The notes below the pieces were generated by a model. The model saw only the letters and a program-made list of their open reading frames with translations, made no database searches and was not told where the DNA came from. From Pseudoalteromonas sp. 3D05 (GTDB lineage Bacteria; Pseudomonadota; Gammaproteobacteria; Enterobacterales; Alteromonadaceae), in assembly GCF_002723455.1 (NCBI RefSeq), contig NZ_PDUS01000005.1:62001-126000 (forward strand): DNA of 64,000 bases, written 5' to 3'. Below are positions 4,185-55,128 of this stretch, in pieces (position 1 is the stretch's first letter; each line of letters starts with the position of its first letter). The position numbers and the translations under genes are program-made.

Positions 4185-6680
4185 TTATTGCTCTCTAAGC
4201 GCGCGCATAGGGTCTGCATTAATAATACGCCATACTACCAAAACAATGGCAGAAAAGACGATAGCAATCAATAAACTAGTAAAAATTGTGAGTGCTTGCC
4301 AAGAAAATGCGGGTAATAAAGGAATGGCGCTTTGCAGTGTTAAATAAAGACCACAGGCGAGGGTGATAGCAATAGCTAGCGCACTCAGTAGTAAGCCATT
4401 AAAGCTTTTTAACGTTCGTTTCATGAGGTTTAAGCGGCTTGCCCCGGTTGCCATACGTATAGCAAGTTCAAAGCGTTTTAACTCTGTAAAGCTCATTGCC
4501 ATACCATTACTGCCCACGGCTGCAAGTAGCAAAGTTAAGAGAGACAATGCACTGATAAAATAAAATTGCACGCGTTGCGGCATGACTTGTTCATCCCAGC
4601 GTTCATCAAGTGTGCGTGCATCTACTTCAATAACTTGTGGGTGAGCATATTTAATTGCATGCATAATGGCATGTTTATCAAAGCGTTGCCCTGGCGGCAG
4701 TTGCATAGCAAGCGTGATCCCAAAATTCGGGGCATCATGTGAATAGCTGTAAAGCATGGTCGGATAACCCTGATCTTTAGCCATGATGGTGTAATTATCT
4801 GCGACCACTCCGATAATTTGACGAAGAGAAACTTCTTTACCTATTACCGATTCAATGGTGCCATCGGTGGACAATTGCTTAGCAAAGGTTTCGTTGATTA
4901 ATGCCACGGGCTCTAAATTTTGATATTGCGTTTGGCTCATATTTTGCCCAGCCAGCAAGTTGAGCTTATAGGTCTGTAAATAATCGGGAGCAATGTTAAT
5001 CGTCATATAGGTAAAGCGCTCTCGGGTTTGCTCATCCTCGGTCATATTAATAACAGTGTTAAAGTTAAAAGGTTCGCCTTGGCTTTGTAGTGAGGTGATA
5101 CCAGGCTGCACTTGCAAAACGGCCTGTTCAAGTTGGTTTTTTATTTCAAGCGCACCCTGATAGCGTTGTTTTGTTTTTTGCTCTGTCGCGATAGGATCTT
5201 GTTTTGCTTGTTCCTCAATCTCTGCAGTATTTAACACAGGGTCATCGTTATTTTGTAGGCGTACATTGGCTATTAGCGTATTGCCTGGCTCAAAACCTAA
5301 GTGAATATTTAGCTTATCGTAGGCGGTATTTGCCAGCATAGCGGTGCCCGTTAAAATAACCGCAGCGGAGCTTAACTGTGCAATAAATAACACTTGACTA
5401 AGACGGGTCACTTTACCTGCATTGACACCCTTATTACCGTTATTAAGGTTGCTAATTAGTTGTGTTTGATCAAACTGACGGGTTGATAGAAATGCAAAAA
5501 ATAAATTGATAATCAGCACAATTGCAACCGCAACAGCAATAGTTATTGCATCAATTTGCACCAGTTCAAGCATCGCGATATTACCGCCACTGATGATAGG
5601 TAATAATCTGATCAGCCAAGCGGCACCTAGCAAACCTAATACTGCGGCGAGTAAAAAGGTGCTCAGGTTTTCTAAAAAGCTCATTACTAATAATTTGTTG
5701 CGTGATGCGCCCATACATAACTGTGTGGCAAATTCTTGTTCGCGTTGTTGGTAATGGGCAATAAATAGGTTTAGTAGGTTGAGGCTTGCCATTACGAGTA
5801 AGATGACCACCGTTGCTAATAAAAACAACAGCATGGTTTGCTGATCTTCCATCAGGTTATCGCGATATAAGGTTGCCGTGCTTTCTGGGGCCATGCTCTC
5901 AAACATTTGTTTCATAGGGCCAAGCTGTTCACCTTGGTCAAGATAATACTGCTGCCAAAAACTCTCCATGTCATCGGCCGTAAATGCACGTTCGGTTTGG
6001 CGAAATAGGGGCAGCAGGCTGCCGTTGATAGACATTTGTGTCGGCATTGCTGCTTTTTCGGCTAAATCATAATAACGCCATACTTGCTGAGCATACTTTT
6101 CATCGTTATCGGAATTAAATGATGAAAAGTCACTGACCACTCCGCGAATTTGCAGTGATGTACCCTCTATTTGTAATGTTTGACCTATGGCGTTTACGCT
6201 TTTTTGAAATGCGCTTTGCCATAAGCTTTGTGAGATCCATACCGAGTTTTGTGTATTGACGTTGTTTGGCTGCTCACCTAGTAGTAACGTACCTCCAACT
6301 ACTGGCATAAAGTTATGACTGGCATCGAAGCGTGAGACGGGGTAATTCGTTTCGTTTACAGTTACCGCACTTTCGTCAGCTTGGTATGCAGCAAACTGGC
6401 CATATCCTTTGTATTGCTCAGCTAATAATGCCAAGCGTTTAGCAGTAAACATAGAAACACGCATATCTTCTGAAACCGCCATGGTGCGGTTAATAACATA
6501 CAGGTTTTTTTCGTCTTTTATATCAGGTAAAGGCTTAAATATAAGGTGGCTGCTCATAGCGACAACGGCAAGTACCGCAGCCAATGTTAAGCTTAGTGTA
6601 AGCAAGATGGGCAGTGACAAGCGTGGCAATGTAAATAACCGTAAAACACCGTGGCGCAGTGCGCGAAGATAAAAACTCAT
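4185..6680 (-). CDS. MacB/FtsX-type ABC transporter permease (operon 1)
   Basis: An 831-residue inner-membrane protein with one N-terminal membrane segment, a MacB-type periplasmic domain (about 55-275), an FtsX block of three segments (about 280-420), a second periplasmic domain and a final FtsX block (about 705-825). This doubled architecture is typical of long MacB-like permeases in export systems for peptides, antibiotics or lipoproteins, where the periplasmic part transmits motion rather than forming a pore. The start ATG overlaps the ATPase stop (ATGA), and the adaptor gene is in the same operon, so the three form one MacAB-like tripartite exporter; the outer-membrane partner is not nearby. 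Substrate unknown. Confidence 0.88.
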   Translation of the reverse strand: MSFYLRALRHGVLRLFTLPRLSLPILLTLSLTLAAVLAVVAMSSHLIFKPLPDIKDEKNLYVINRTMAVSEDMRVSMFTAKRLALLAEQYKGYGQFAAYQADESAVTVNETNYPVSRFDASHNFMPVVGGTLLLGEQPNNVNTQNSVWISQSLWQSAFQKSVNAIGQTLQIEGTSLQIRGVVSDFSSFNSDNDEKYAQQVWRYYDLAEKAAMPTQMSINGSLLPLFRQTERAFTADDMESFWQQYYLDQGEQLGPMKQMFESMAPESTATLYRDNLMEDQQTMLLFLLATVVILLVMASLNLLNLFIAHYQQREQEFATQLCMGASRNKLLVMSFLENLSTFLLAAVLGLLGAAWLIRLLPIISGGNIAMLELVQIDAITIAVAVAIVLIINLFFAFLSTRQFDQTQLISNLNNGNKGVNAGKVTRLSQVLFIAQLSSAAVILTGTAMLANTAYDKLNIHLGFEPGNTLIANVRLQNNDDPVLNTAEIEEQAKQDPIATEQKTKQRYQGALEIKNQLEQAVLQVQPGITSLQSQGEPFNFNTVINMTEDEQTRERFTYMTINIAPDYLQTYKLNLLAGQNMSQTQYQNLEPVALINETFAKQLSTDGTIESVIGKEVSLRQIIGVVADNYTIMAKDQGYPTMLYSYSHDAPNFGITLAMQLPPGQRFDKHAIMHAIKYAHPQVIEVDARTLDERWDEQVMPQRVQFYFISALSLLTLLLAAVGSNGMAMSFTELKRFELAIRMATGASRLNLMKRTLKSFNGLLLSALAIAITLACGLYLTLQSAIPLLPAFSWQALTIFTSLLIAIVFSAIVLVVWRIINADPMRALREQ

Positions 6681-43793: not shown

Positions 43794-46700
43794 ATGAATG
43801 GACCTCGATTTAACTTTAGGGTATTAGTTAGTAGTTGTTATATTTTAGGTTTAACAGCATGTGGTGGTGGGTCTGAAAAAAATGATACACCCGTTCCAGT
43901 CCCTGTTCCAACTCCTGTCTTGGCTGAATCTATTTATTCTGATGATGTTATTGAGCGTTTAGGCTTAGATCCTTACGTATCAGACACAGATGGAGACGGT
44001 CTTAAAGACGACTATGAGATAACATATGCTAATGAATATATGTCTCCTAGTATCGCAGATGCAGATGAAAACGGTATATCCGATGCAAGTGAAGATAATG
44101 ACAACGATGGCTTAACAAATCTCCAGGAACAAGCGCTAGCAACTTCGCCTTTTTTACATGATTCAGACTTTGATGGTTTATCAGACGACAAAGAAGTTAC
44201 GGTAGGGACCGATCCACTCAATAGCGACAGCGACAAAGATGGTCTACTAGATGGAGATGAAGTTCTACTTGGTTTAGATCCATCTAAAGCCGATTCTGAT
44301 GGTGATGGAATAGGTGATTTGGATGATTCTCAAGAGTTAACATTCGTTAGCAGTGATTCAGTAACGTTAAAAACAGATGCAACTCCAAGCTTTAAAAAAC
44401 ACTTTAGTGTAACTGTAAATCAGACCTTTAATGATAACGAACTAAAAAATACTCCGGTTTCTTATCAGCTAGATATTATAGACTTACCGGTTGATTTCAT
44501 CGAACCGATATCTTTAACATTAAATACACAAAATGAATCAGGAAGTGGAGAGGTATTTTATTATAATAACTCGCTAGGCTTACAGCCTGTTCCAAAATCT
44601 ATGATCGATAGCTTAGTGGATGGTTCGGTAACTGTAAAAGCCACCGCTCAAGAATTGGTAGCACTGCAATCTAAAGATGCAACGGCTGCAACTCAGAAAC
44701 TCTCATCAGATAACAATTCAAGCCAGTTAGATGTAGCGACTACCTCTAATAGCATTATAAGCTCAATTATGTTTTTTGTTGTAAGTGCTGATAAGAGTAA
44801 AGCTATATATGACCGCTTTTTTACAAACCAAAATGTACCACCAAGTATTGAATTTAATTTCTCTGGGTCATCTGGTCATCGTGCTATTAATTTAGGTCTT
44901 AGCCCAATATTTACTAATGGATCTCATATAGAAAGCTCAGGCTTATTGATTAATGAGGGGGGAAGTGTTGCTTTCTCACCTCTTACGTCGACTAATACAT
45001 ATAGCCTTACTTTATATTTTGATCGGATAGATAAAGAAGGCGTTTTGCTATCACAAGAAAATACAGAAAACTTAGGTTATTACAATTATATATTTATTGA
45101 TCAACCCTCAAATAAACCCACAGCGGTAACGCTTGTAAAAAAAGAAAATGAATTTTCGGTATACCTTAACGGTAAGCTTTATCAAGAAAGGGAAGCGTCA
45201 GGGGATATAGCTCAATATTCAACGTTGATGCCAATAACAATTGGTAAACCACTGGTAAATTGCGACCCTGATAACGACACTTCATCATGTGCAAATAACA
45301 AACAATTAGAAGGTGTGTTACTTGGGTTAGAGTTTTATGAGCAAGCGCTTTCGCTCGCAGAAGTACGTAAAACAGTCCGCAGAAAATACGAATCTTATAT
45401 GTCTGATACAGATTCAGATTCAGATACATTATCGAATGTTGATGAACTATTGGGTTTTGTTATTTATGGTTCATCAAAAATAATCCAAACGAACTATCTA
45501 GAAGCAGATACTGATTTTGACTCTCTAAATGACAATGAAGAATTGCAAAGGTATCTGAACATAGGCTCTAATGCTTTACCCTCATTAAAAGCTCATGGGT
45601 CCCAAAGTGCGAGCATACAAAATAGCTCTTCTTATACTATTAATTACTGTGAAGGGGCCTTTATATCAAATTCCTATCAACAATGCAGAATCTATTTAAA
45701 AACATATGCAAATATTTCAGATCCTTTAATCGTAGATACAGACCGTGATGGTATATCGGATGCAGATGAATACTTTTTAGGTACTAACTCTTACTACTAT
45801 GATTCAGATCTTGATGGGTTACCAGATCGTTTTGAGCTTTATTTAGAGACAGACCCTTCCGATCCAGATACAGATGGGGACGGGTTATTAGATGGAATGG
45901 AATATTACTTATCTGGTGAGGCAACTCTTCCTTTATTAGATAAAAATGTAGACTTTGGATTAGATCCTACTTCAGCTAATAATATCAATACTTACGAAGG
46001 TATTGAAGAGATTAAACTGGTAATTAGTTATTTGATCAACAAAGAAGATGAAGGCTTTTTTGATTCACTGCATAAAGATATAGCATTGGGTTTATATCAA
46101 GCCCAGTTAGAAAAGATTGAACAACTTGGCATGAATAACTCTACTATACATAATCATTTTCTTGATGGGGATAGAGTTCATGAATTTAGATACGTAGAAA
46201 TCAACAATTATAACGAGCAGTCAGCCCTCTACAGGAAGGCTAAAAGTTTGAAAGAGCTTTATAACGATTACAAGCTAACACAAATAGAGTATGGAATACG
46301 AAAAGGCACAGGCTTTGAGGCTAAAAACTCTTACCAAGCTATAGGGCAAGTTACAGGTATGTTTGTTGCATTTGTTCCTTTTGCAGATATACCCGCAACG
46401 GCAAGGGATATAACAGCTAATGTCCTTTATGGTCGCTTTAATGACGCTTTAATCGATATCGTTTCTTTAGTCCCTGCGGGCGATGCGGTTAAAATTTATG
46501 ACAAGGTCGTTCCTCTTGCTAGAAGGTTCGGAAATAATAAACAATTCTCAAATGTAGTTGTAAATTTACTTTTTAAATACGCATCAAGGTTTTCTAATAA
46601 ACAAAAAATTACAATCATGGCTGCTTTATTAGGCGCTGATGTATTAAATTCTTTGATGTATGAAGGAGCTGGGAGCTCTGAAAGCAAGAACAATTCATCA

Positions 46701-48842
46701 GTCAGTGATTTAAATTTATTGCTCAATAGAGCAGATGTTACAGCCATACCACTAAGGCTAACTATTGATGAAGTTATAGCTATTGCAAAAGGAGTTGATG
46801 TAGCAAAGCTAAAGAACATGCTTGATGATAACAGTATTGAAGTGGAAAAAGCTCCATCGTCTACGTCTGAATTCGGGGCTTTCAATGGTGTGTTTCATAA
46901 ATCACTCGATACTGAACATTGGAAAAATGCACAGAATTTTGTTGAGCACTACTTAAGAGAAACTTATGGTGTGGTTGCCAAACAAGAAGTGACAATGACT
47001 CCACCTAAAGACAGGAAGTATCTCGGTAGCTCTGAAGCTAGTGAGGATATGAATAAAAGAAGGGATGATATTCTAGTAGAGAAAAGCCCTGTCTATCTAA
47101 ATCGCGATGGCTCTAAGTCAATAGATGTTGAAACTCATGAAGTCAAAGCCGGACCAATGAGCTATTCAAAAGAAATCAGAAAGGAAATTGAGAAGGACTG
47201 TTTACGCCTAAACGCCAAGGGCCGCTCTGACCAATTCACTATGAAAGACAAGACAGACAAACCTATTTATGCAAACGTCCAAAGTGTTACTTGGCACTTT
47301 ACAGCAAGTGGTAAAACATCAAAAAAAGTTGTTTTAGGTGCGAGCAAGCGATTGTTAGAAGCATTACAGTGTAAAAAGTATGGTGGCAACGCCATAAAAA
47401 TAAAAGCTTATTTGCCTAACCCTGGAGCTGCAGTTAATAGTATTTCTGGTGAAAATATAAAGTTAGCGACATTTGTTGCCAATGTAGATGATTTAGAAGC
47501 TGCAAAGGTGTCTGGTGCTTACGGTGAAGCTACAAGCACTTTCGTTAATACGCCTATCAAACTTGATATCAGTTTTGGCTATCGTGAGTTAACAGACAGC
47601 GATGGCGATGGATATGATGATATCGTTGATGCATTTCCTAACGACAGTCGTTATCATTTAGATAGTGATAATGATGGTATGGCTGATACGTGGGAAGTGC
47701 TCTACGGCCTAGACCCCAATGATGCCACTGATAAAGATTTAGACCCCGATAATGATGAGCTATCTAATTTAACTGAGTTTGAGTTAACACTTGAACTAGG
47801 TATTGCTTATTCAGGCTACGACCCTACAAGATCTTCACCTCAGGTTCCTGAATCATTATCGATAAATATAAAAGTGGGCGATACATATCAACTGCCTTTA
47901 GCTCCACTTACGCAATGGTCAGGAAAGGGTGACTCCTTAGAAATTAAGCTACTAATAGACACTATAGATGATGGACTGCGTGCGACCGGCGCAGATATAG
48001 TCAATCACTTTGGTATGAAAGTAGAGGAGGATGTAGCTGAAGGAGCAGTGCTGGAGCTTACTTACTTCGTTCAGGTGCAAACTGGTGAGGTATCTAAGGT
48101 TGGAGTTATATCTGTAAGCACAGAACAAGAATCTAGCCTCACAATTAAACTCAATGACACGGGCATAACGTGGTGCGCAGATGGCAGTAACAACAACCTT
48201 GACTGCCCAGTCACCGGTTACGAAGGACAAGACGCCGAGCACGGCCGTGATGCAGAGGCTAAAGCTGGGACCTTGGAAAAAGTCGGTGGCGGTAATGCTG
48301 GGTTTGACTTTACCAAGCTGGATGCTAACGGCAATGACTTACCAGAATCGGCAAGTGCCTGGTCGTGCGTGCGCGATAACCACACAGGGTTAATATGGGA
48401 AGTAAAAACCGATGATGGCGGCCTGCACGATAAAAACGACCTTTATAACTGGTATAACCCTGATAGCAACACCAATGGTGGAAATCCAGGCTATCAAAAT
48501 GACGATGGCAATATTTGCTATGGCTATGATGCCAATAACGAAGCTAGTTACTGCAATACCCACGCGTATGTTGAGCGGGTGAATACACAACGCTTATGTG
48601 GTGCCAACGATTGGCGTATGCCTACAAGATTAGAGTTAATGGGTATTGTGAACAATGGCACTAAAGGTCCAGCGATTGACGCGCAGTACTTTTCGCAAAC
48701 TCGGTCAGATTGGTTTTGGTCGTCGTCGCCCAATGCCTTCAATGGCATTTACGCATGGCGCGTCTCTTTCTTCGTTGGCTATGTTGGTATCACCGATAAT
48801 GACTACAGCCACCATGTGCGGTTGGTGAGAACCAGAGAGTGA
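43794..48842 (+). CDS. 1682-residue lipoprotein: calcium-repeat, LamG-like, nuclease-like and DUF1566 domains
   Basis: Lipobox LTACGGG puts the lipidated Cys at residue 23. A Pro/Val linker and acidic DxDxDG repeats (about 60-180, again near 645-730 and 1280-1340) form thrombospondin type-3-like calcium stalks. Residues about 350-545 resemble a LamG/concanavalin domain. At about 850-910, ADIPATARDITANVLYGRFNDALIDIVSLVPAGDA is like the pre-toxin segments of polymorphic toxins. Residues 1080-1200 hold RRDDILV and THEVKAG (Asp1091/1092, Glu1116, Lys1118), a PD-(D/E)XK-like pattern. The C-terminus (about 1550-1682) is a DUF1566 domain ending in AWRVSFFVGYVG and VRLVRTRE, with a DGR-like variable tract. 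Presumably an outer-membrane surface protein for adhesion or competition. Confidence 0.75.
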   Translation: MNGPRFNFRVLVSSCYILGLTACGGGSEKNDTPVPVPVPTPVLAESIYSDDVIERLGLDPYVSDTDGDGLKDDYEITYANEYMSPSIADADENGISDASEDNDNDGLTNLQEQALATSPFLHDSDFDGLSDDKEVTVGTDPLNSDSDKDGLLDGDEVLLGLDPSKADSDGDGIGDLDDSQELTFVSSDSVTLKTDATPSFKKHFSVTVNQTFNDNELKNTPVSYQLDIIDLPVDFIEPISLTLNTQNESGSGEVFYYNNSLGLQPVPKSMIDSLVDGSVTVKATAQELVALQSKDATAATQKLSSDNNSSQLDVATTSNSIISSIMFFVVSADKSKAIYDRFFTNQNVPPSIEFNFSGSSGHRAINLGLSPIFTNGSHIESSGLLINEGGSVAFSPLTSTNTYSLTLYFDRIDKEGVLLSQENTENLGYYNYIFIDQPSNKPTAVTLVKKENEFSVYLNGKLYQEREASGDIAQYSTLMPITIGKPLVNCDPDNDTSSCANNKQLEGVLLGLEFYEQALSLAEVRKTVRRKYESYMSDTDSDSDTLSNVDELLGFVIYGSSKIIQTNYLEADTDFDSLNDNEELQRYLNIGSNALPSLKAHGSQSASIQNSSSYTINYCEGAFISNSYQQCRIYLKTYANISDPLIVDTDRDGISDADEYFLGTNSYYYDSDLDGLPDRFELYLETDPSDPDTDGDGLLDGMEYYLSGEATLPLLDKNVDFGLDPTSANNINTYEGIEEIKLVISYLINKEDEGFFDSLHKDIALGLYQAQLEKIEQLGMNNSTIHNHFLDGDRVHEFRYVEINNYNEQSALYRKAKSLKELYNDYKLTQIEYGIRKGTGFEAKNSYQAIGQVTGMFVAFVPFADIPATARDITANVLYGRFNDALIDIVSLVPAGDAVKIYDKVVPLARRFGNNKQFSNVVVNLLFKYASRFSNKQKITIMAALLGADVLNSLMYEGAGSSESKNNSSVSDLNLLLNRADVTAIPLRLTIDEVIAIAKGVDVAKLKNMLDDNSIEVEKAPSSTSEFGAFNGVFHKSLDTEHWKNAQNFVEHYLRETYGVVAKQEVTMTPPKDRKYLGSSEASEDMNKRRDDILVEKSPVYLNRDGSKSIDVETHEVKAGPMSYSKEIRKEIEKDCLRLNAKGRSDQFTMKDKTDKPIYANVQSVTWHFTASGKTSKKVVLGASKRLLEALQCKKYGGNAIKIKAYLPNPGAAVNSISGENIKLATFVANVDDLEAAKVSGAYGEATSTFVNTPIKLDISFGYRELTDSDGDGYDDIVDAFPNDSRYHLDSDNDGMADTWEVLYGLDPNDATDKDLDPDNDELSNLTEFELTLELGIAYSGYDPTRSSPQVPESLSINIKVGDTYQLPLAPLTQWSGKGDSLEIKLLIDTIDDGLRATGADIVNHFGMKVEEDVAEGAVLELTYFVQVQTGEVSKVGVISVSTEQESSLTIKLNDTGITWCADGSNNNLDCPVTGYEGQDAEHGRDAEAKAGTLEKVGGGNAGFDFTKLDANGNDLPESASAWSCVRDNHTGLIWEVKTDDGGLHDKNDLYNWYNPDSNTNGGNPGYQNDDGNICYGYDANNEASYCNTHAYVERVNTQRLCGANDWRMPTRLELMGIVNNGTKGPAIDAQYFSQTRSDWFWSSSPNAFNGIYAWRVSFFVGYVGITDNDYSHHVRLVRTRE
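48732..48815 (+). other. DGR-like variable region 1 (NNY codon tract)
   Basis: From 48759 to 48815 nineteen consecutive codons end in C or T; the seven codons 48732-48752 do too, interrupted only by the fixed GCA TGG. The flanking codons GTG CGG TTG GTG AGA (VRLVR) do not. This is the pattern left when AAY codons of a template repeat are randomised at adenines to NNY. Confidence 0.6.
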
Positions 48843-48985
48843 TCTGATAAATTCTCCATATATCCGTTTATCAAGCTTATATGGCTCGCAGGCGTTGTAA
48901 ATGGGGTAAAGCACAGTCATTTTTTTATACTAGTATGATAGTAAAAGCGGCATATTTACAGTTAATACACCACAGGAGCTCAACT

Positions 48986-49540
48986 ATGCAGATTCAATTT
49001 AAAACTTTACTAATCCTTTTTGTGTTACTGAGCTTTAGCCCGCACATTTTAGCCAATGGAAGTTGCAATAACGAAAATACGGCCATTCCCTTTAGTACGT
49101 CCAGTAGTGATTTTACCATCCATGATAACGGCACGGTCACACATAGTGTTACGGGCTTGATGTGGATGCGGTGTATTATTGGGCAAACATGGCAAAATGA
49201 AAGCTGTATAGGTGTTCCAAGTGTGTTTACTTGGCAGCAAGCATTGACTCAAAGCGGCACTAATTATGCGGAGTACAGTGATTGGCGACTACCGAATAAA
49301 AATGAGCTGGCCTCTATTGTAGAGCAGCGTTGTTATAACCCGAGTATAAATGAGGCTATTTTCCCAGATACACCAGGTAGCAGGTTCTGGTCGACGACGC
49401 CCAATACCACTCGGTCGTCTTCGCCCTATACCAACTATGGTAGTCTCGCTTGGGGTGTCAATTTCGGTTATGGCTATGTAGGCAACGATACTGAGGCTAA
49501 TGGTTATGGTTTTGTACGGTTGGTTCGAGCCAGGCAGTAA
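48986..49540 (+). CDS. secreted DUF1566 (Lcl C-terminal-like) protein
   Basis: 184 residues from ATG 48986, which has CAGGAG upstream and begins a signal peptide (MQIQFKTLLILFVLLSFSPHILANG); the longer frame from 48881 has neither. The mature protein is one DUF1566 domain: HSVTGLMWMRC, WRLPNKNELASIVEQRCYNP, RFWSTTPN and a terminal VRLVRARQ. Four to five Cys suggest disulfides. It is a small paralog of the C-terminal domain of the preceding lipoprotein and shares its variable-tract layout. DUF1566 domains have a C-type-lectin-like fold and are frequent targets of diversity-generating retroelements. Ligand unknown. Confidence 0.85.
   Translation: MQIQFKTLLILFVLLSFSPHILANGSCNNENTAIPFSTSSSDFTIHDNGTVTHSVTGLMWMRCIIGQTWQNESCIGVPSVFTWQQALTQSGTNYAEYSDWRLPNKNELASIVEQRCYNPSINEAIFPDTPGSRFWSTTPNTTRSSSPYTNYGSLAWGVNFGYGYVGNDTEANGYGFVRLVRARQ
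49424..49516 (+). other. DGR-like variable region 2 (NNY-rich tract)
   Basis: Of 31 codons before VRLVR, all end in C or T except TGG, GTA, GAG and GTA at conserved positions. The protein line GYVGNDTEANGYGFVRLVR has the spacing of known DUF1566 variable regions (GNVNNNNKNNNNYVRLVR-like). Confidence 0.55.
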
Positions 49541-49985: not shown

Positions 49986-50939
49986 ATGAGTAGAGCAGGA
50001 ATACAGTGGTTCCCTGGGCATATGAATAAAGCCCGAAATGAAATTAAAGAAATCATGCCACAGATGGATGTGATCATTGAAGTGCTTGATGCGCGCATTC
50101 CTTACAGTAGTGAAAACCCGATGGTGACGAGCCTGCGTGAAGGCAAGCCGGTCATTAAAATTTTAAATAAAGCGGATTTAGCTGACCCTAAAATGACGCA
50201 AGCGTGGAAAGATTACTTTGAGCAAGAAAGTGGTGTAAAAGCCATTGCGTTTGGTAATGATAAAGCGGGGCAAGTGCATACGATTAATGAGCTATGTAAA
50301 AAGCTCGTGCCGCATAAGGTGGGCGCTGATAAGCAGATTAAAGCCATGATCATGGGTATTCCCAATGTAGGCAAGTCTACACTTATTAATACCTTAGCAG
50401 GTCGTATAGTGGCAAAAACAGGTAATGAGCCTGCCGTCACTAAAGCGCAGCAACGTATTAAGCTTGAAGATGGCATTATGCTTTATGACACACCGGGTAT
50501 GTTATGGCCAAAAGTTGAAAATGAAAACTCAGGTTACCGATTGGGTGCAACAGGCGCTATTCGTGATACCGCAATTGACTACGAAGAAGTGGCCAGCTAC
50601 ACCGCTGAATATTTATTGCTTGCCTACCCTGAGCTTTTAAAAGCGCGTTATAAAATTGATGAATTACCACAAAGTGATTGGGAATTTGTTGAAATGGCGG
50701 GCAAAAAGCGTGGCTGTATTCGCGGTGGAAACCAAATCGATACGTATAAAATGTCAGAAATTCTAATTAATGAATTACGAGACGGTATCATTGGCCGTAT
50801 TACCATGGAAACACCTGCCATGCGTGAAGAAGAAGAAAAAATGGTTGCTGAGTTACGCGCTGCCGCTGAAGCAAAAAAAGCAGCAAAAGAAGAAGAGAAA
50901 AAGCAACGTCGTGCACGAGCGCGTAAAAATCGTCGCTAG
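49986..50939 (+). CDS. rbgA: ribosome biogenesis GTPase RbgA/YlqF with island-supplied start
   Basis: 317 residues, circularly permuted GTPase: G4 NKAD (about 57-60), G1 GIPNVGKST (about 123-131), G3 DTPG (about 170), then the helical RNA-binding part and a basic tail (KKQRRARARKNRR). RbgA-like GTPases act in large-subunit assembly. The first six residues (MSRAGI) come from the island and replace native MA-I, so the protein is restored with a slightly changed N-terminus. The island-side RBS (AAAGG, 12 bases before ATG) looks weaker than the native TAGGAG left behind at 26.03 kb, so expression now depends on island sequence. Confidence 0.93.
   Translation: MSRAGIQWFPGHMNKARNEIKEIMPQMDVIIEVLDARIPYSSENPMVTSLREGKPVIKILNKADLADPKMTQAWKDYFEQESGVKAIAFGNDKAGQVHTINELCKKLVPHKVGADKQIKAMIMGIPNVGKSTLINTLAGRIVAKTGNEPAVTKAQQRIKLEDGIMLYDTPGMLWPKVENENSGYRLGATGAIRDTAIDYEEVASYTAEYLLLAYPELLKARYKIDELPQSDWEFVEMAGKKRGCIRGGNQIDTYKMSEILINELRDGIIGRITMETPAMREEEEKMVAELRAAAEAKKAAKEEEKKQRRARARKNRR
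50004..50019 (+). repeat. attR core (16-bp direct repeat)
   Basis: CAGTGGTTCCCTGGGC, identical to attL at 26043-26058, inside rbgA codons 7-12 of the hybrid gene. Confidence 0.93.
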
Positions 50940-50977
50940 TTGTTTTTACACGGGTTAGCTCACTAAATAACAGCCAT

Positions 50978-51002
50978 AAAAAAAGCCCGAAAGGGCTTTT
51001 TT
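50978..51002. terminator. bidirectional terminator between rbgA and small RNA copy 1
   Basis: Seven A, stem AGCCC-GAAA-GGGCT, then six T. It serves rbgA on the plus strand and the small RNA on the minus strand. Confidence 0.92.
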
Positions 51003-51198
51003 AGTGTCATATCAACCGTCACCGATATGAGCAATGTAGCAAGTAAATATAGTAGGGCGATTATCTGTTATTAACATCAAGGGGCGTTGCAATTAATAAC
51101 AGGTAATCATCACTTTAGCGTGGGCTACACGTTGTTTCAGGGTCGAGAAACAAATTCAGTTTATTCCTTACAAGCCGTCGTACTTTACCGTCTTGTTG
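50978..51198 (-). ncRNA. candidate Fur-regulated small RNA, copy 1
   Basis: About 220 nt from a predicted start near 51198 to the terminator. Contains a long hairpin (51059-51108) displaying a C-rich loop (minus strand GCAACGCCCCUUGAU), a smaller hairpin CAUAUC/GAUAUG before the terminator, and a 5' block with GACCCUGAAACAACGUGUAGCCCACG conserved in both copies. No ORF with RBS. A tandem, Fur-repressed pair recalls PrrF1/PrrF2 or RyhB in function, though no sequence similarity to them was recognised. The C-rich loop could pair with Shine-Dalgarno regions of iron-protein mRNAs; this is inference. Confidence 0.72.
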
Positions 51199-51260
51199 AT
51201 ATTGATTATCAATTAGATTAATTCGTGTGTCAATAGTTTATTGAAAATAATTCTCATTTA
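51197..51260 (-). promoter_or_regulatory. promoter and Fur-like boxes of small RNA copy 1
   Basis: Minus strand TTGACA (51233-51228), 17-bp spacer, GATAAT (51210-51205). TGATATTGATTATCA (51197-51211) overlaps -10 and matches the 7-1-7 Fur box TGATAATnATTATCA except at two bases. A second box TGAAAATAATTCTCA (51242-51256) lies just above -35. Confidence 0.78.
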
Positions 51261-51281
51261 CTTTGCCTGGATTTCAGGCAT

Positions 51282-51501
51282 AAAAAAAGCCCGTTAGGGC
51301 TTTTTTAGTATCATATCTACCGTCACCGATATGAGCAATGTAGCAAGTAAAATAGTAGGGCGGTTACCCGATATTAATATCAAGGGGCGTTGCATTAATA
51401 ACAGGTAACCATCGCTTTAACGTGGGCTACACGTTGTTTCAGGGTCGAGAAACAAAAGTCAGTTTATTCAGTACAAGTCGTCGTGCTTTATCGTCTTGTT
51501 G
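51282..51501 (-). ncRNA. candidate Fur-regulated small RNA, copy 2
   Basis: About 220 nt from near 51501 to the terminator AGCCC-GTTA-GGGCT with T-run at 51282-51306. Same plan as copy 1: 5' conserved block, hairpin 51362-51410 with the same C-rich loop, CAUAUC/GAUAUG hairpin, terminator. In the long stem one pair changes from A-U in copy 1 to G-C here, and a C-A mismatch becomes C-G, so the fold is kept while sequence drifts; one U-U mismatch is new. Confidence 0.72.
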
Positions 51502-51563
51502 ATATTGATTATCAGTTAGATTTAACCAGCTGTCAACACTCATTTGAAAATAATTCTCATTTA
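51500..51563 (-). promoter_or_regulatory. promoter and Fur-like boxes of small RNA copy 2
   Basis: Minus strand TTGACA (51536-51531), 17-bp spacer, GATAAT (51513-51508), with Fur-like boxes at 51500-51514 and 51545-51559, placed exactly as in copy 1. Confidence 0.78.
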
Positions 51564-51603
51564 GTTTTTGTTTTATTTAAAGGTACATATAAAACAGTTG
51601 TTT

Positions 51604-51630
51604 AGCACTAAAGTTAGTGCTGATTTTTTT
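51604..51630 (+). terminator. terminator-like hairpin in the leader of the hybrid kinase gene
   Basis: Stem AGCACTA / TAGTGCT, loop AAGT, then GATTTTTTT, 48 bp before the kinase ATG and on the same strand. No gene upstream needs it, so it may be a leader attenuator or end a short plus-strand RNA. Confidence 0.6.
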
Positions 51631-51678
51631 GTCTAAAACACCTATGCTGGTTAAATAATAATTAGAATAGTCGGTTTT

Positions 51679-54600
51679 ATGTTTACTATTTGGTCGATAA
51701 GTTTGCTTGCCGTGGTGTATTTAGCCATTTTATTTGCGGTTGCTGGGTGGGCTGACAAGCGTAAAGTTTTACCGTTTAAAGGTTTAACATACGGGCTTTC
51801 GCTAGGTGTTTACTGCACGTCTTGGGCATTTTTTGGTACGACAGCACAAGCTGCAAATAATGGCTGGTGGTTGGCGCCTACTTATGCGGGAACCATTTTG
51901 TTATTTATATTTGGTTGGCAAATTTACTGCCGCATTGCCCACATTTGTCGTCAGCAAAAGCTAACATCAATGGCTGATTTTATTGCCACGCGTTATGGCC
52001 AATCTTCTAGTTTATCGGGGTTGATTTCACTTATTTCAGTGATTGCGATTGTACCGTATATCTCTTTACAATTAAGCGCTACGGCGCAAAGTATTAACCT
52101 GTTAACAGCACAGACTGCCTCACAAAATCCTCAAGTGTGGGCGGACAGCACGTTTTATATTACGTTACTATTAGCGCTATTTGCTATTTTATTTGGTGCC
52201 CGGCGCTTAAAGCCCAGTGAACATAACCCCGGGTTAATTGCCAGTATCGCATTTGAATCTGTGGTTAAGTTGTTGGCATTTATTGTGGTGGGTTTGTATG
52301 TGTGTTTTGCACTATTTGACAGCCCTATGGACTTATTTAATAAAGCCACCGAACTGAATATAGATAAACAAGTGGTAGCGACTCAAAGCCCAACTTATGT
52401 CTACGTTGCACATACCGTATTAGGGGTATTGGCGACGCTGTGTTTACCACGGCAATTTCATATGAGTTTTATTGAAAATAATAACAATAAGGAGCTTGCC
52501 ACCGCCCGTTGGTTGTTCCCCATTTATTTACTTTTGATCAACCTGTTTATACTGCCTATTGCTTATGCGGGGCTTATTTATTTTCAAGGCAGTGATGTCG
52601 GTTACGATACATTTGTTCTGGCATTACCCATGTCGGCAGACAATCCGTTTATCGCACTATTAGCATTTTTGGGAGGCTTCTCCGCGGCAACCAGTATGGT
52701 AATTGTGTCGGCTATTGTGTTGTCGGTGATGATCACCAATGACTTTATAAACCAGTTTATTTTGCGCCGATCCCAATTGAATTCAGGTAGCAGAGGCTTA
52801 AATAAGAACAACTTATTGCATGCACGAAAAATTGTTATCGTGCTGATATTACTGCTTAGTTACTTTACGCATCGAATATTAGGTGAAACAAATACGCTTG
52901 CGAATGTTGGTTTGATGTCGTTTACCCTTGTTGCGCAGTTTGCCCCTGCAATGGTGATTGGCCTATGGTGGCGACAAGCCTCTTGCAAAGGGGCGCAATT
53001 AGGAATTTTAAGTGGTTTTATTATTTGGGGTTATACCCTGCTATTACCGAGCCTAGCAGGTGGTTTAGGGAGTGATAATGGCTGGTTAATTAATGGTCCA
53101 TGGCAGATTGCATGGCTCGCACCGACTGATTTATTTTCCCTTGAGCTGGAAAGTATAAGCCAGGCATTATTACTTTCATTAGGCGCTAATTGTCTCGTCT
53201 ATTTTCTGGTGCCGCTATTTAGCCAAGCCACATTAGCTGAGCGTTTACAGAGCAATAAATTTATTACTCAAGCAACGGACTCTCGTGTTAACGCAGCGCT
53301 TCAGCCGCTAAGTTACAATGATTTAAGCGCTCTGCTGCAACGTTTTGCAGAGAAAGAAGCCAGCCAAATATTGGTCAATGACTATTTCCCTATCGATAAA
53401 AGTAAGTGGAAACAGCCAGCTAATGTTGAATTAGAGCTACTCATTGAACGTGAAATGTCAGCGGTCATTGGCGGGGCGTCGGCAAGGCTTATTTTAGATG
53501 TGGCGAAAAACGAACAGCGCCAACCGCTAGAGCAAGTGGCGGAGTTCGTTGACGAAGCCACACAAGTTCTAAAGTTTAATCGTGACTTATTGCAATCCAC
53601 CATCGAAAATATTCAGCAAGGCATTAGCGTGGTTGACAGTGAACTACGTTTAGTCGCCTGGAATCAGGGCTATAAGCAGATGTTTGCCTACCCAGAAGAT
53701 GCGCTTTTTATAGGTCGTCCAGTGGCTGATATGATTCGTTTTAATGCAGAGCGAGGATTGTTTAGCACTGACGATATAGACACCGAAGTTGATAAGCGTT
53801 TGGCATACATTAAACAGGGCAGCGCGTATAAATATCAGCGCTCACACAGTGACGGTCGGGTATTTGAAATGCAAGGCAACCCTTTACCAGGCGGTGGTTT
53901 TGTTACCACTTACACGGATATATCTGAATTTGTTAAACAGCAAAAAGCACTAACACAAGCTAATGTGAGCCTAGAGGAAAAAGTAGCGGCGCGCACGACT
54001 GCGTTAACGCAAGCAAATCATGAACTATCACAAGCCAAACAAGTCGCAGAGCAAGCCACGGTGAGCAAAACGCGTTTTTTTGCTGCTGCTAGTCACGATT
54101 TACTGCAACCTTTTAATGCAGCCAGCTTATTTTGCTCATTGATGAATGAAAAAGCGCAAGACACAGAACTTAAAGATCTTGCCTTAAATATCAAAAATTC
54201 ATTATCCAGTGCAGAAGAGCTGCTATCGAGTATTTTAGAGCTCACCAAGCTTGATTCTGGTGCATTTAAAGTGCAAGTCAGTGAGTTTTTGGCAAGTAGT
54301 CTAATTGAGCCGCTGCGTAATGATTATGCGGCTCTTGCCAAAGAGAAAGGGCTCGGCTTTGTTATTGAAACCTGCGATGTGCGTTTGATAACAGACAAAG
54401 CATTATTAAGGCGCGTGTTACGTAACTTACTAAGTAATGCAATTCGCTATACAGAGCAAGGTGAAGTGCGATTGAAGATGCAACAGCAAGATGGACATGT
54501 TTCGTTTATTGTAGAAGACACGGGAATTGGCATTGCCACAGCCGACCAACAAAAAATTTATCAAGAGTTTAAACAGTTAGGTGCCAAGCACAATGCAGAA

Positions 54601-55128
54601 GGTTTAGGGCTAGGCTTAGCAATTACTAAGCGAATTTGTGATTTGCTGACTATTCCGTTGGTGATGGGATCTGAGCTTGGCAAAGGCACGCAATTTACAT
54701 TAACCCTGCCTTGTAAAGAGAACTATAACAAAAGCACTACTCAACCCCATGAGCATAACCAAGAGACAGAATTGGGCCGTCTACGTATTTGGCTGATAGA
54801 TAACGATAGCAATGTGCTTGAAGCGCTCAAACAATTACTTGAAAACTGGGGCTGTGCAATTGCCACCGCCACTAACTTAACCGAGCTTGAGCAATTGAAA
54901 GTGGCTCACGATTTACCGCAACTACTCATAGTTGATTATCAACTAGATGACGGTGTGACTGGACTTGACGTTATTGAGCAAGCAGGTCTTGAAACACTGC
55001 CGGCTATAGTCAACACAGCGAATCATGATGAGGGTATTCGAGAGCGGGTGCTAGATGCAGGCTACCCGCTGCTCTATAAACCACTTAAAGCACCCGCCTT
55101 AAAACGGATGATAAAACGGCTAACATAA
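51679..55128 (+). CDS. SSS transporter-fused hybrid sensor kinase (CbrA/NahK-like)
   Basis: 1149 residues: 12-13 membrane segments of a sodium/solute symporter domain (about 1-520, CTSWAFFGTTAQAANNGWW and the GGFSAATSMVIVSAIVLSVM core), a linker, a PAS domain (about 650-750, GISVVDSELRLVAWNQGY), a coiled coil (about 760-795), HisKA with His806 in AAASHDLLQPF, HATPase (about 900-1020) and a C-terminal receiver with Asp1086 in LLIVDYQLDD. Proteins of this kind include CbrA, which links histidine transport to carbon/nitrogen control, and NahK-like kinases. The signal may be a transported amino acid or similar solute. No output regulator adjoins; its tail overlaps the opposing kinase gene by 9 bp. 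Confidence 0.9.
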   Translation: MFTIWSISLLAVVYLAILFAVAGWADKRKVLPFKGLTYGLSLGVYCTSWAFFGTTAQAANNGWWLAPTYAGTILLFIFGWQIYCRIAHICRQQKLTSMADFIATRYGQSSSLSGLISLISVIAIVPYISLQLSATAQSINLLTAQTASQNPQVWADSTFYITLLLALFAILFGARRLKPSEHNPGLIASIAFESVVKLLAFIVVGLYVCFALFDSPMDLFNKATELNIDKQVVATQSPTYVYVAHTVLGVLATLCLPRQFHMSFIENNNNKELATARWLFPIYLLLINLFILPIAYAGLIYFQGSDVGYDTFVLALPMSADNPFIALLAFLGGFSAATSMVIVSAIVLSVMITNDFINQFILRRSQLNSGSRGLNKNNLLHARKIVIVLILLLSYFTHRILGETNTLANVGLMSFTLVAQFAPAMVIGLWWRQASCKGAQLGILSGFIIWGYTLLLPSLAGGLGSDNGWLINGPWQIAWLAPTDLFSLELESISQALLLSLGANCLVYFLVPLFSQATLAERLQSNKFITQATDSRVNAALQPLSYNDLSALLQRFAEKEASQILVNDYFPIDKSKWKQPANVELELLIEREMSAVIGGASARLILDVAKNEQRQPLEQVAEFVDEATQVLKFNRDLLQSTIENIQQGISVVDSELRLVAWNQGYKQMFAYPEDALFIGRPVADMIRFNAERGLFSTDDIDTEVDKRLAYIKQGSAYKYQRSHSDGRVFEMQGNPLPGGGFVTTYTDISEFVKQQKALTQANVSLEEKVAARTTALTQANHELSQAKQVAEQATVSKTRFFAAASHDLLQPFNAASLFCSLMNEKAQDTELKDLALNIKNSLSSAEELLSSILELTKLDSGAFKVQVSEFLASSLIEPLRNDYAALAKEKGLGFVIETCDVRLITDKALLRRVLRNLLSNAIRYTEQGEVRLKMQQQDGHVSFIVEDTGIGIATADQQKIYQEFKQLGAKHNAEGLGLGLAITKRICDLLTIPLVMGSELGKGTQFTLTLPCKENYNKSTTQPHEHNQETELGRLRIWLIDNDSNVLEALKQLLENWGCAIATATNLTELEQLKVAHDLPQLLIVDYQLDDGVTGLDVIEQAGLETLPAIVNTANHDEGIRERVLDAGYPLLYKPLKAPALKRMIKRLT

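Follow-up and report, generated by a model that had tools for sequence, protein, structure and literature searches.

Two tandem genes on the minus strand of the window (the whole 64,000-nt stretch of Pseudoalteromonas DNA that was analysed) very probably encode a Fur-repressed, trans-acting, iron-sparing antisense sRNA of about 220 nt, which would work in the manner of RyhB and PrrF. The sequence itself displays the structure of the genes, their conservation, a structured RNA with compensatory changes and a conserved complementarity to candidate targets. Both units are located between rbgA and a hybrid sensor kinase gene, and the locus comprises the following features.

51679..55128, plus strand: gene for a hybrid sensor histidine kinase with a NahK/ErcS-like C-terminal half, divergent neighbour (NF041832)
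51545..51559, no strand assigned: Fur-type box of copy 1, upstream of its -35 element, TGAAAATAATTCTCA, 12/14
51508..51536, minus strand: promoter of copy 1, TTGACA-N17-GATAAT, conserved in relatives
51500..51514, no strand assigned: Fur-type box of copy 1, overlying its -10 element, TGATATTGATTATCA, 13/14 to the 7-1-7 consensus
51282..51501, minus strand: predicted sRNA gene copy 1 (upstream), about 220 nt from the predicted start to the end of the T run (alignment A2, fold)
51311..51351, minus strand: near-invariant 41-nt core of copy 1, made up of a linear seed and a hairpin (alignment A1, covariance model R1)
51343..51350, minus strand: copy 1 linear seed, UUACUUGC, with complementarity to the region of the sdhC start
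51318..51327, minus strand: hairpin-loop seed GGUGACGGUA of copy 1, which together with the next base is complementary to sodB codons 5-8 and partly to the acnB leader
51283..51306, minus strand: intrinsic terminator of copy 1 (24-nt repeat arm, fold)
51242..51256, no strand assigned: Fur-type box of copy 2, upstream of its -35 element, TGAAAATAATTCTCA, 12/14
51205..51233, minus strand: promoter of copy 2, TTGACA-N17-GATAAT, conserved in relatives
51197..51211, no strand assigned: Fur-type box of copy 2, overlying its -10 element, TGATATTGATTATCA, 13/14
50978..51198, minus strand: predicted sRNA gene copy 2 (downstream) (alignment A2, fold)
51007..51047, minus strand: 41-nt near-invariant core of copy 2 (A1, R1)
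51014..51023, minus strand: hairpin-loop seed GGUGACGGUU of copy 2, with a different last loop base
50979..51002, minus strand: intrinsic terminator of copy 2 (24-nt repeat arm, fold)
49986..50939, plus strand: rbgA/ylqF, convergent neighbour (TIGR03596, 351 bits)

Four pairs of direct repeats were observed across 50971-51567, with a spacing of 302-304 bp and an identity of 83-95%. The pair of tandem units described in the earlier note is present, and the unit length of 280 bp given there is replaced by a period of about 303 bp. The systematic ORF listing, made at a length of at least 60 aa, contains no frame overlapping 50978-51563. The sensor kinase scores 353 bits against NF041832, under the cut-off of 400 for that model, and a terminator-like hairpin lies on the plus strand at window positions 51602-51623, between the upstream Fur box and the kinase gene. 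On the other side, upstream of rbgA, the window encodes a predicted protein of 1682 aa with many D-x-D-x-D-G motifs (43794-48842) and a 219-aa neighbour (48881-49540) that by eye resembles the C-terminal part of the larger protein.

The minus-strand promoter, the paired Fur-like boxes and the strong terminator that the earlier note had proposed for each unit were all recovered. A scan of 2 kb gave six promoter-like matches, a total equal to chance (shuffle mean 5.3), and the top two are the TTGACA-N17-GATAAT elements at 51536-51508 and 51233-51205, each matching 11 of 12 consensus positions. One Fur-type box covers each -10 element and a second is located upstream of each -35 element. Scored against TGATAATNATTATCA, which we take to be the 7-1-7 Fur consensus, these four boxes occupy ranks 1-4 in the whole 64-kb window, and first-order Markov simulations (n=20) gave a mean of 0.45 sites scoring at least 12 per 64 kb and none scoring at least 13. 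About 220 nt from each promoter, a 24-nt repeat arm folds on itself to form a GC stem flanked by A and T runs. A simple terminator scan listed neither of these sites; the T run is probably taken up into the stem and so escapes it. The copy 2 terminator is symmetrical and may therefore also end rbgA transcription.

The 3´ part of the RNA is dominated by a 41-nt core, UUUACUUGCUACAUUGCUCAUAUCGGUGACGGU(A/U)GAUAUGA, in which a linear stretch is followed by a 7-bp hairpin with a 10-nt loop. The full RNA folds with a stability well beyond that of dinucleotide shuffles (z -3.99 for copy 1 and z -4.01 for copy 2; 0/200 shuffles each). In alignment A1, which took 53 of the 74 distinct core-terminator sequences, five of the seven core-hairpin pairs are invariant, and the loop-closing C-G pair changes to U-A in four sequences and to U-G in three (n=53). 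Pairing is kept in 99.7% of cells, with four double-changed cells compared with 0.5 in shuffles. These two figures carry most of the support for the core hairpin, because its single double-changed pair was also reached by 221 of 500 shuffles. The full-length alignment A2 holds 22 of the 23 rbgA-locus copies (loci L001-L017 and L019), including copy 1 (L001:1813-2032) and copy 2 (L001:1509-1729); one copy with a long insertion was dropped, and copies from more distant genomes (L018, L020, L045-L060) were excluded. Its consensus contains a long central hairpin with an invariant apex, CAACGCCCCUUG. Changes on both sides occur in 11 of 56 pairs (7.4 in shuffles, equalled by 2 of 500), and double-sided cells number 46, compared with 15.2 in shuffles and 6-11 with slid partners. 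Counts of further pair types are less telling (35 versus 32.5 in shuffles, with 46 of 500 as high). The full-length RNA thus shows compensatory base changes. In the consensus fold, GCUACAU of the linear seed is moreover paired with a GUGUAGC-like stretch upstream, so that the seed may need opening before use; with five of the seven pairs invariant, this pairing is putative.

The 5´ domain is unlike between the rbgA locus and a second locus described below, although by eye CTCGACCC recurs in 21 of 23 rbgA-locus copies and 14 of 23 second-locus copies. In the rbgA-locus copies this domain carries conserved C-rich loops, the apical CAACGCCCCUUG and CUCGACCC, which may be additional seeds directed at ribosome-binding sites. 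In the third copy in the genome, an 18-codon ATG frame falls in the 5´ part (L021:4869-4925); several related copies retain ACCGACCTCAGTGCC without the ATG, so the stretch is more likely an RNA element than a frame.

The third copy was found by DNA similarity of the core plus terminator on another contig of the same genome (C19; L021, ~4846-5070), where a TTGACC-N17-AATAAT promoter is accompanied by Fur-like boxes. This second locus is on the smaller contig in relatives assembled in two or three contigs, which we infer to be the second chromosome. DNA similarity revealed relatives in genomes of the same genus, often with several copies in a row. The earlier note had made its case depend on conservation of the promoter and boxes in relatives, and both are retained: a TTGANN-N17-RATAAT promoter is present in 87 of 90 copies (60 loci read), and both boxes score at least 10/14 in 82 of the 87 promoter-bearing copies, compared with 42 of 5000 random windows. 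One second-locus sequence, L026, has no recognisable promoter and was excluded from the second-locus alignment. Two second-locus copies, L035:2013-2080 (G022) and L036:2001-2068 (G021), keep the promoter and hairpin with the linear seed replaced by UAGCCUACAUCUUCAUUUUU, which suggests that they act through the loop only.

Covariance model R1, built from A1 to represent the core plus terminator, has matches with E-values of at most 1e-5 in 107 of the 108 Pseudoalteromonas genomes. The 289 matches are distributed as one in 11 genomes, two in 38, three in 33, four in 22 and five in 3; the only genome of the 108 without a match, G016, belongs to the same genus. A covariance-model search across the order, an idea also taken from the earlier note, was run on 295 genomes drawn evenly, and only two matched, both Pseudoalteromonas and one of them the genome of the window. 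Among the matches listed for the exact 19-nt core in named genomes (80 of 118 stretches), 79 are from Pseudoalteromonas and one is from a Bacteroidales MAG; the latter apparently lies within coding sequence without the sRNA hairpin and was taken as chance. Judged by these searches, the RNA forms a lineage-specific family whose members number one to five per genome, and at this sampling the rest of the order has no match.

Candidate targets were sought in five classes chosen in advance, sodB, sdhC, acnB, fumarase and ferritin, which are the classic iron-sparing targets from work on RyhB and PrrF. In sodB, CTACCGTCAC occupies codons 5-8 in all 11 Fe-sodB genes fetched (16 same-genus genomes searched) and could pair over 10 nt with the loop of the A variant, GUGACGGUA(G). 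The word is absent from the six second-type sod genes examined, which were taken as manganese-type. No stretch of wholly invariant codons in sodB is longer than that of codons 3-8; 78 invariant residues have at least four synonymous codons, nine of these use a single codon throughout, and four of the nine are codons 5-8. Codon freezing near the start codon could have other causes. The loops of copy 2 and the third copy end in GGUU, which leaves 8 nt of complementarity to the sodB coding site, and 9 of 11 sodB leaders offer this loop type a second 8-nt match, UAUCAACC, upstream of that site.

The linear seed is complementary to GCAAGTAA, which lies at -10 before the GTG start of sdhC in 10/10 Pseudoalteromonas genomes searched and is absent in the two outside genomes with a located start (in a third, the start was not found). 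For acnB, CGTCACC occurs at about -21 in all seven Pseudoalteromonas genomes with an ordinary acnB and is absent in the three outside genomes examined, of five outside loci. Three of ten genomes, including that of the window, have only a divergent acnB and no ordinary one. All three carry CAAGTAAA, complementary to the linear seed, at -25 to -27 of this gene, and the word is absent before the divergent acnB in two genomes that have both AcnB types. The proposal in the earlier note of an iron-sparing RNA thereby gains support from conserved predicted pairing with sodB, sdhC and acnB. Fumarase and ferritin were dropped as targets: fumarase has loop-complementary words in only 3/7 genomes, with none in the genome of the window, and 14 genes of the ferritin family gave isolated matches (one of 9 nt and one of 8 nt) and no consistent site. 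The complement of the whole 19-nt core, with up to three mismatches, matched only the three sRNA genes in their own genome, which indicates that no target pairs across all 19 nt.

Background starts for the controls were those of ORFs of at least 200 aa, with the start chosen by rule. Duplex free energy over the 41-nt core was not discriminating and was rejected as a target score. Of 296 background starts, 13 and 21 equalled or exceeded two sodB sequences in duplex strength and 13 and 57 did so for two acnB sequences; for nine sdhC sequences, only part of which stand out, the counts were 1, 1, 4, 6, 7, 9, 15, 16 and 48. The scores that replaced it, a change made after the outcome of the energy score was known, were the longest complementary word and then the complementary word shared by every sequence of a gene. 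The longest match to the core reached at least 7 nt in 37 of 292 background starts, at least 8 nt in 11, at least 9 nt in two and 10 nt in none; a 7-nt match such as that in acnB is thus not rare over the whole core. Between -30 and +30 of 296 background starts, neither CTACCGTCAC nor CGTCACC was found and GCAAGTAA was found once. The joint test required the same word in six sequences per gene (6/11 sodB, 6/10 sdhC and 6/7 acnB). The conserved word lengths of 10 (sodB), 8 (sdhC) and 7 (acnB) were jointly reached by 0 of 4000 dinucleotide-shuffled cores, and singly by 1, 58 and 85 of 4000, respectively.

From these features we infer Fur binding, an iron response, the use of Hfq and the repression of targets. 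With plentiful iron, Fe-Fur on both boxes would block the promoter, as the boxes imply. When iron is short, the RNA would be made and would end at its terminator. The linear seed UUACUUGC could then cover the translation start of sdhC, and the hairpin loop GUGACGGUA(G) could cover codons 5-8 of sodB and the acnB leader beside the ribosome-binding site. Translation and stability of the iron-enzyme mRNAs would fall, probably with the help of Hfq, and iron would be spared. A tentative and somewhat doubtful extension of this scheme is a genus-specific family in which the linear and loop seeds serve different enzymes, target sites switch seed when acnB is replaced, and second-locus copies are specialising. 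It is drawn from the loop site on the ordinary acnB, the linear-seed site on the sole divergent acnB and the two second-locus copies that lack the linear seed.

A true but strongly diverged RyhB orthologue, descended from the same ancestor with a drifted seed and a moved locus, is quite possible, if short of probable, and would be compatible with the function proposed here. It is favoured by ACATTGCTCAYAT, which agrees with the RyhB core at 12 of 13 bases and, like that core, lies immediately ahead of the 3´ end; few Markov-shuffled copies equal this score (46/5000 for the whole RNA and 25/5000 for the core). RyhB is also widespread in the order, where the Rfam model RF00057 finds it in 109 of 295 genomes at E 0.001 (79 above the cut-off), and it is tandem in two other families. 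The same model, however, finds nothing in the genome of the window or in the other Pseudoalteromonas genome of the order draw, it has no match around the genes even when E is allowed to reach 5, and the canonical RyhB core CATTGCTCACATTGC has 0 matches in the window's own genome. The 15-nt RyhB core occurs in just 3 of 246 genomes of the same family, all three by eye without a Fur promoter and terminator, and was rejected there as RyhB. The locus, moreover, adjoins rbgA, whereas the tandem RyhB of family f2 adjoins polA. Escape from the model has a precedent, since according to Yang et al. (2010; PMC2964681) the RyhB of Shewanella was likewise missed by both BLAST and the Rfam model.

It is unlikely that the RNA is a Fur-controlled sRNA with its main role elsewhere, for example in siderophore production, motility or the envelope, and that the sodB, sdhC and acnB matches are minor or accidental. 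Such a role draws on the fact that only the five preselected classes stand behind the target evidence and on the further conserved C-rich loops of the 5´ domain; the joint complementarity to three classic iron-sparing targets and the freeze of synonymous sites in sodB exactly at the pairing site argue against it. A duplicated intergenic regulatory element or mobile repeat with Fur-like AT-rich sequence, and no RNA gene at all, is highly improbable. Tandem repeats in an intergenic gap and AT-rich boxes would be expected of such an element, but the compensatory changes, the promoter-to-terminator order, the retention throughout the genus and the seed conservation already largely refute it. An iron-sparing antisense sRNA remains the preferred explanation.

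Pseudoalteromonas is a widespread marine genus that inhabits iron-scarce environments. With a near-invariant core in 107 of 108 genomes and predicted sites in sodB, sdhC and acnB, its post-transcriptional iron response becomes directly testable, and the one to five copies at two kinds of locus offer naturally graded material in which to study why duplication of iron sRNAs occurs. The RNA is unnamed in Rfam, and at the level of titles and abstract openings it is undescribed in the literature searched on iron sRNAs, RyhB and PrrF in Pseudoalteromonas, Alteromonas, Shewanella and Colwellia. RNA-seq of P. fuliginea predicted hundreds of sRNAs (PMC11882849), and the RNA may already be among them without a name. 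As in the Shewanella case reported by Yang et al. (PMC2964681), RyhB-type regulators can escape standard models.

The sequence was not one recognised in the earlier note. A scan of 50000-53000 with all Rfam models at E up to 5 gave four sub-threshold matches, neither RyhB nor PrrF among them. The best, AaHKsRNA82 (51234-51311; E 0.0078, 34 bits where the cut-off is 51.4), covers the terminator region and was rejected as terminator noise. FsrA of Bacillus is an iron-sparing sRNA with C-rich loops, and the Pseudoalteromonas RNA would share with it and with other C-rich-loop sRNAs an iron-sparing role, by analogy, and C-rich loops that could cover ribosome-binding sites; the sequence comparison with these RNAs extends to the all-Rfam scan.

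PrrF1 and PrrF2 of Pseudomonas (presumably RF00444 in Rfam) target sodB, sdh and aconitase among others, and PrrH is a haem-responsive read-through RNA that spans both genes. The resemblance to this pair noted earlier holds for the tandem duplicated units with Fur boxes and predicted Fur control. The likeness to RyhB is equal, and part of the seed resembles that of RyhB. In contrast to the PrrF pair, a third copy is dispersed, and the Rfam scan gives no sign of likeness to PrrF in sequence. The tandem arrangement of the PrrF genes in Pseudomonas is cited by Yang et al. (PMC2964681).

Tandem canonical RyhB was found in two other families of the order, f2 (L081-L083) and f16 (L084 and L096), with weak Rfam scores of about 32-45 bits; one of these genomes has three copies, each about 364 bp from the next. 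These genes resemble the Pseudoalteromonas pair in their tandem layout and Fur-box-like promoters within the same order; unlike that pair, they retain the canonical CATTGCTCACATTGC core, and the f2 locus adjoins polA. Family f2 looks Shewanella-like from this polA-side locus, as we take Shewanella ryhB to lie near polA, and f16 is, at a guess, Colwellia-like. A tandem RyhB is also reported for S. amazonensis by Yang et al. (PMC2964681).

Compared with RyhB (RF00057) itself, the RNA has the core word ACATTGCTCA in common, a seed region close to the 3´ terminator, a promoter Fur box by sequence match and the 10-nt complementarity of its A-loop variant to sodB mRNA. It differs in its core, TTGCT-ACATTGCTCATAT instead of CATTGCTCACATTGCTTCC, in a second seed placed in a hairpin loop, in its length of about 220 nt, in its up to five copies and in its neighbours rbgA and the sensor kinase gene, a site not shared with Vibrio or Shewanella. 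Yang et al. (2010; PMC2964681) name an upstream Fur site and sodB mRNA complementarity as the only persistent features of RyhB, and by this loose definition the Pseudoalteromonas RNA, with its predicted Fur site, qualifies as a RyhB. The same paper describes the Shewanella TCA cycle as independent of RyhB, so control of sdhC and acnB is not to be assumed by analogy. The Pseudoalteromonas RNA would thus work like RyhB and PrrF as a member of neither family, with a distant homology to RyhB possible though unproven, and its putative Fur sites and conserved complementarity to iron-enzyme mRNAs place it in the class of Fur-repressed iron-sparing sRNAs.
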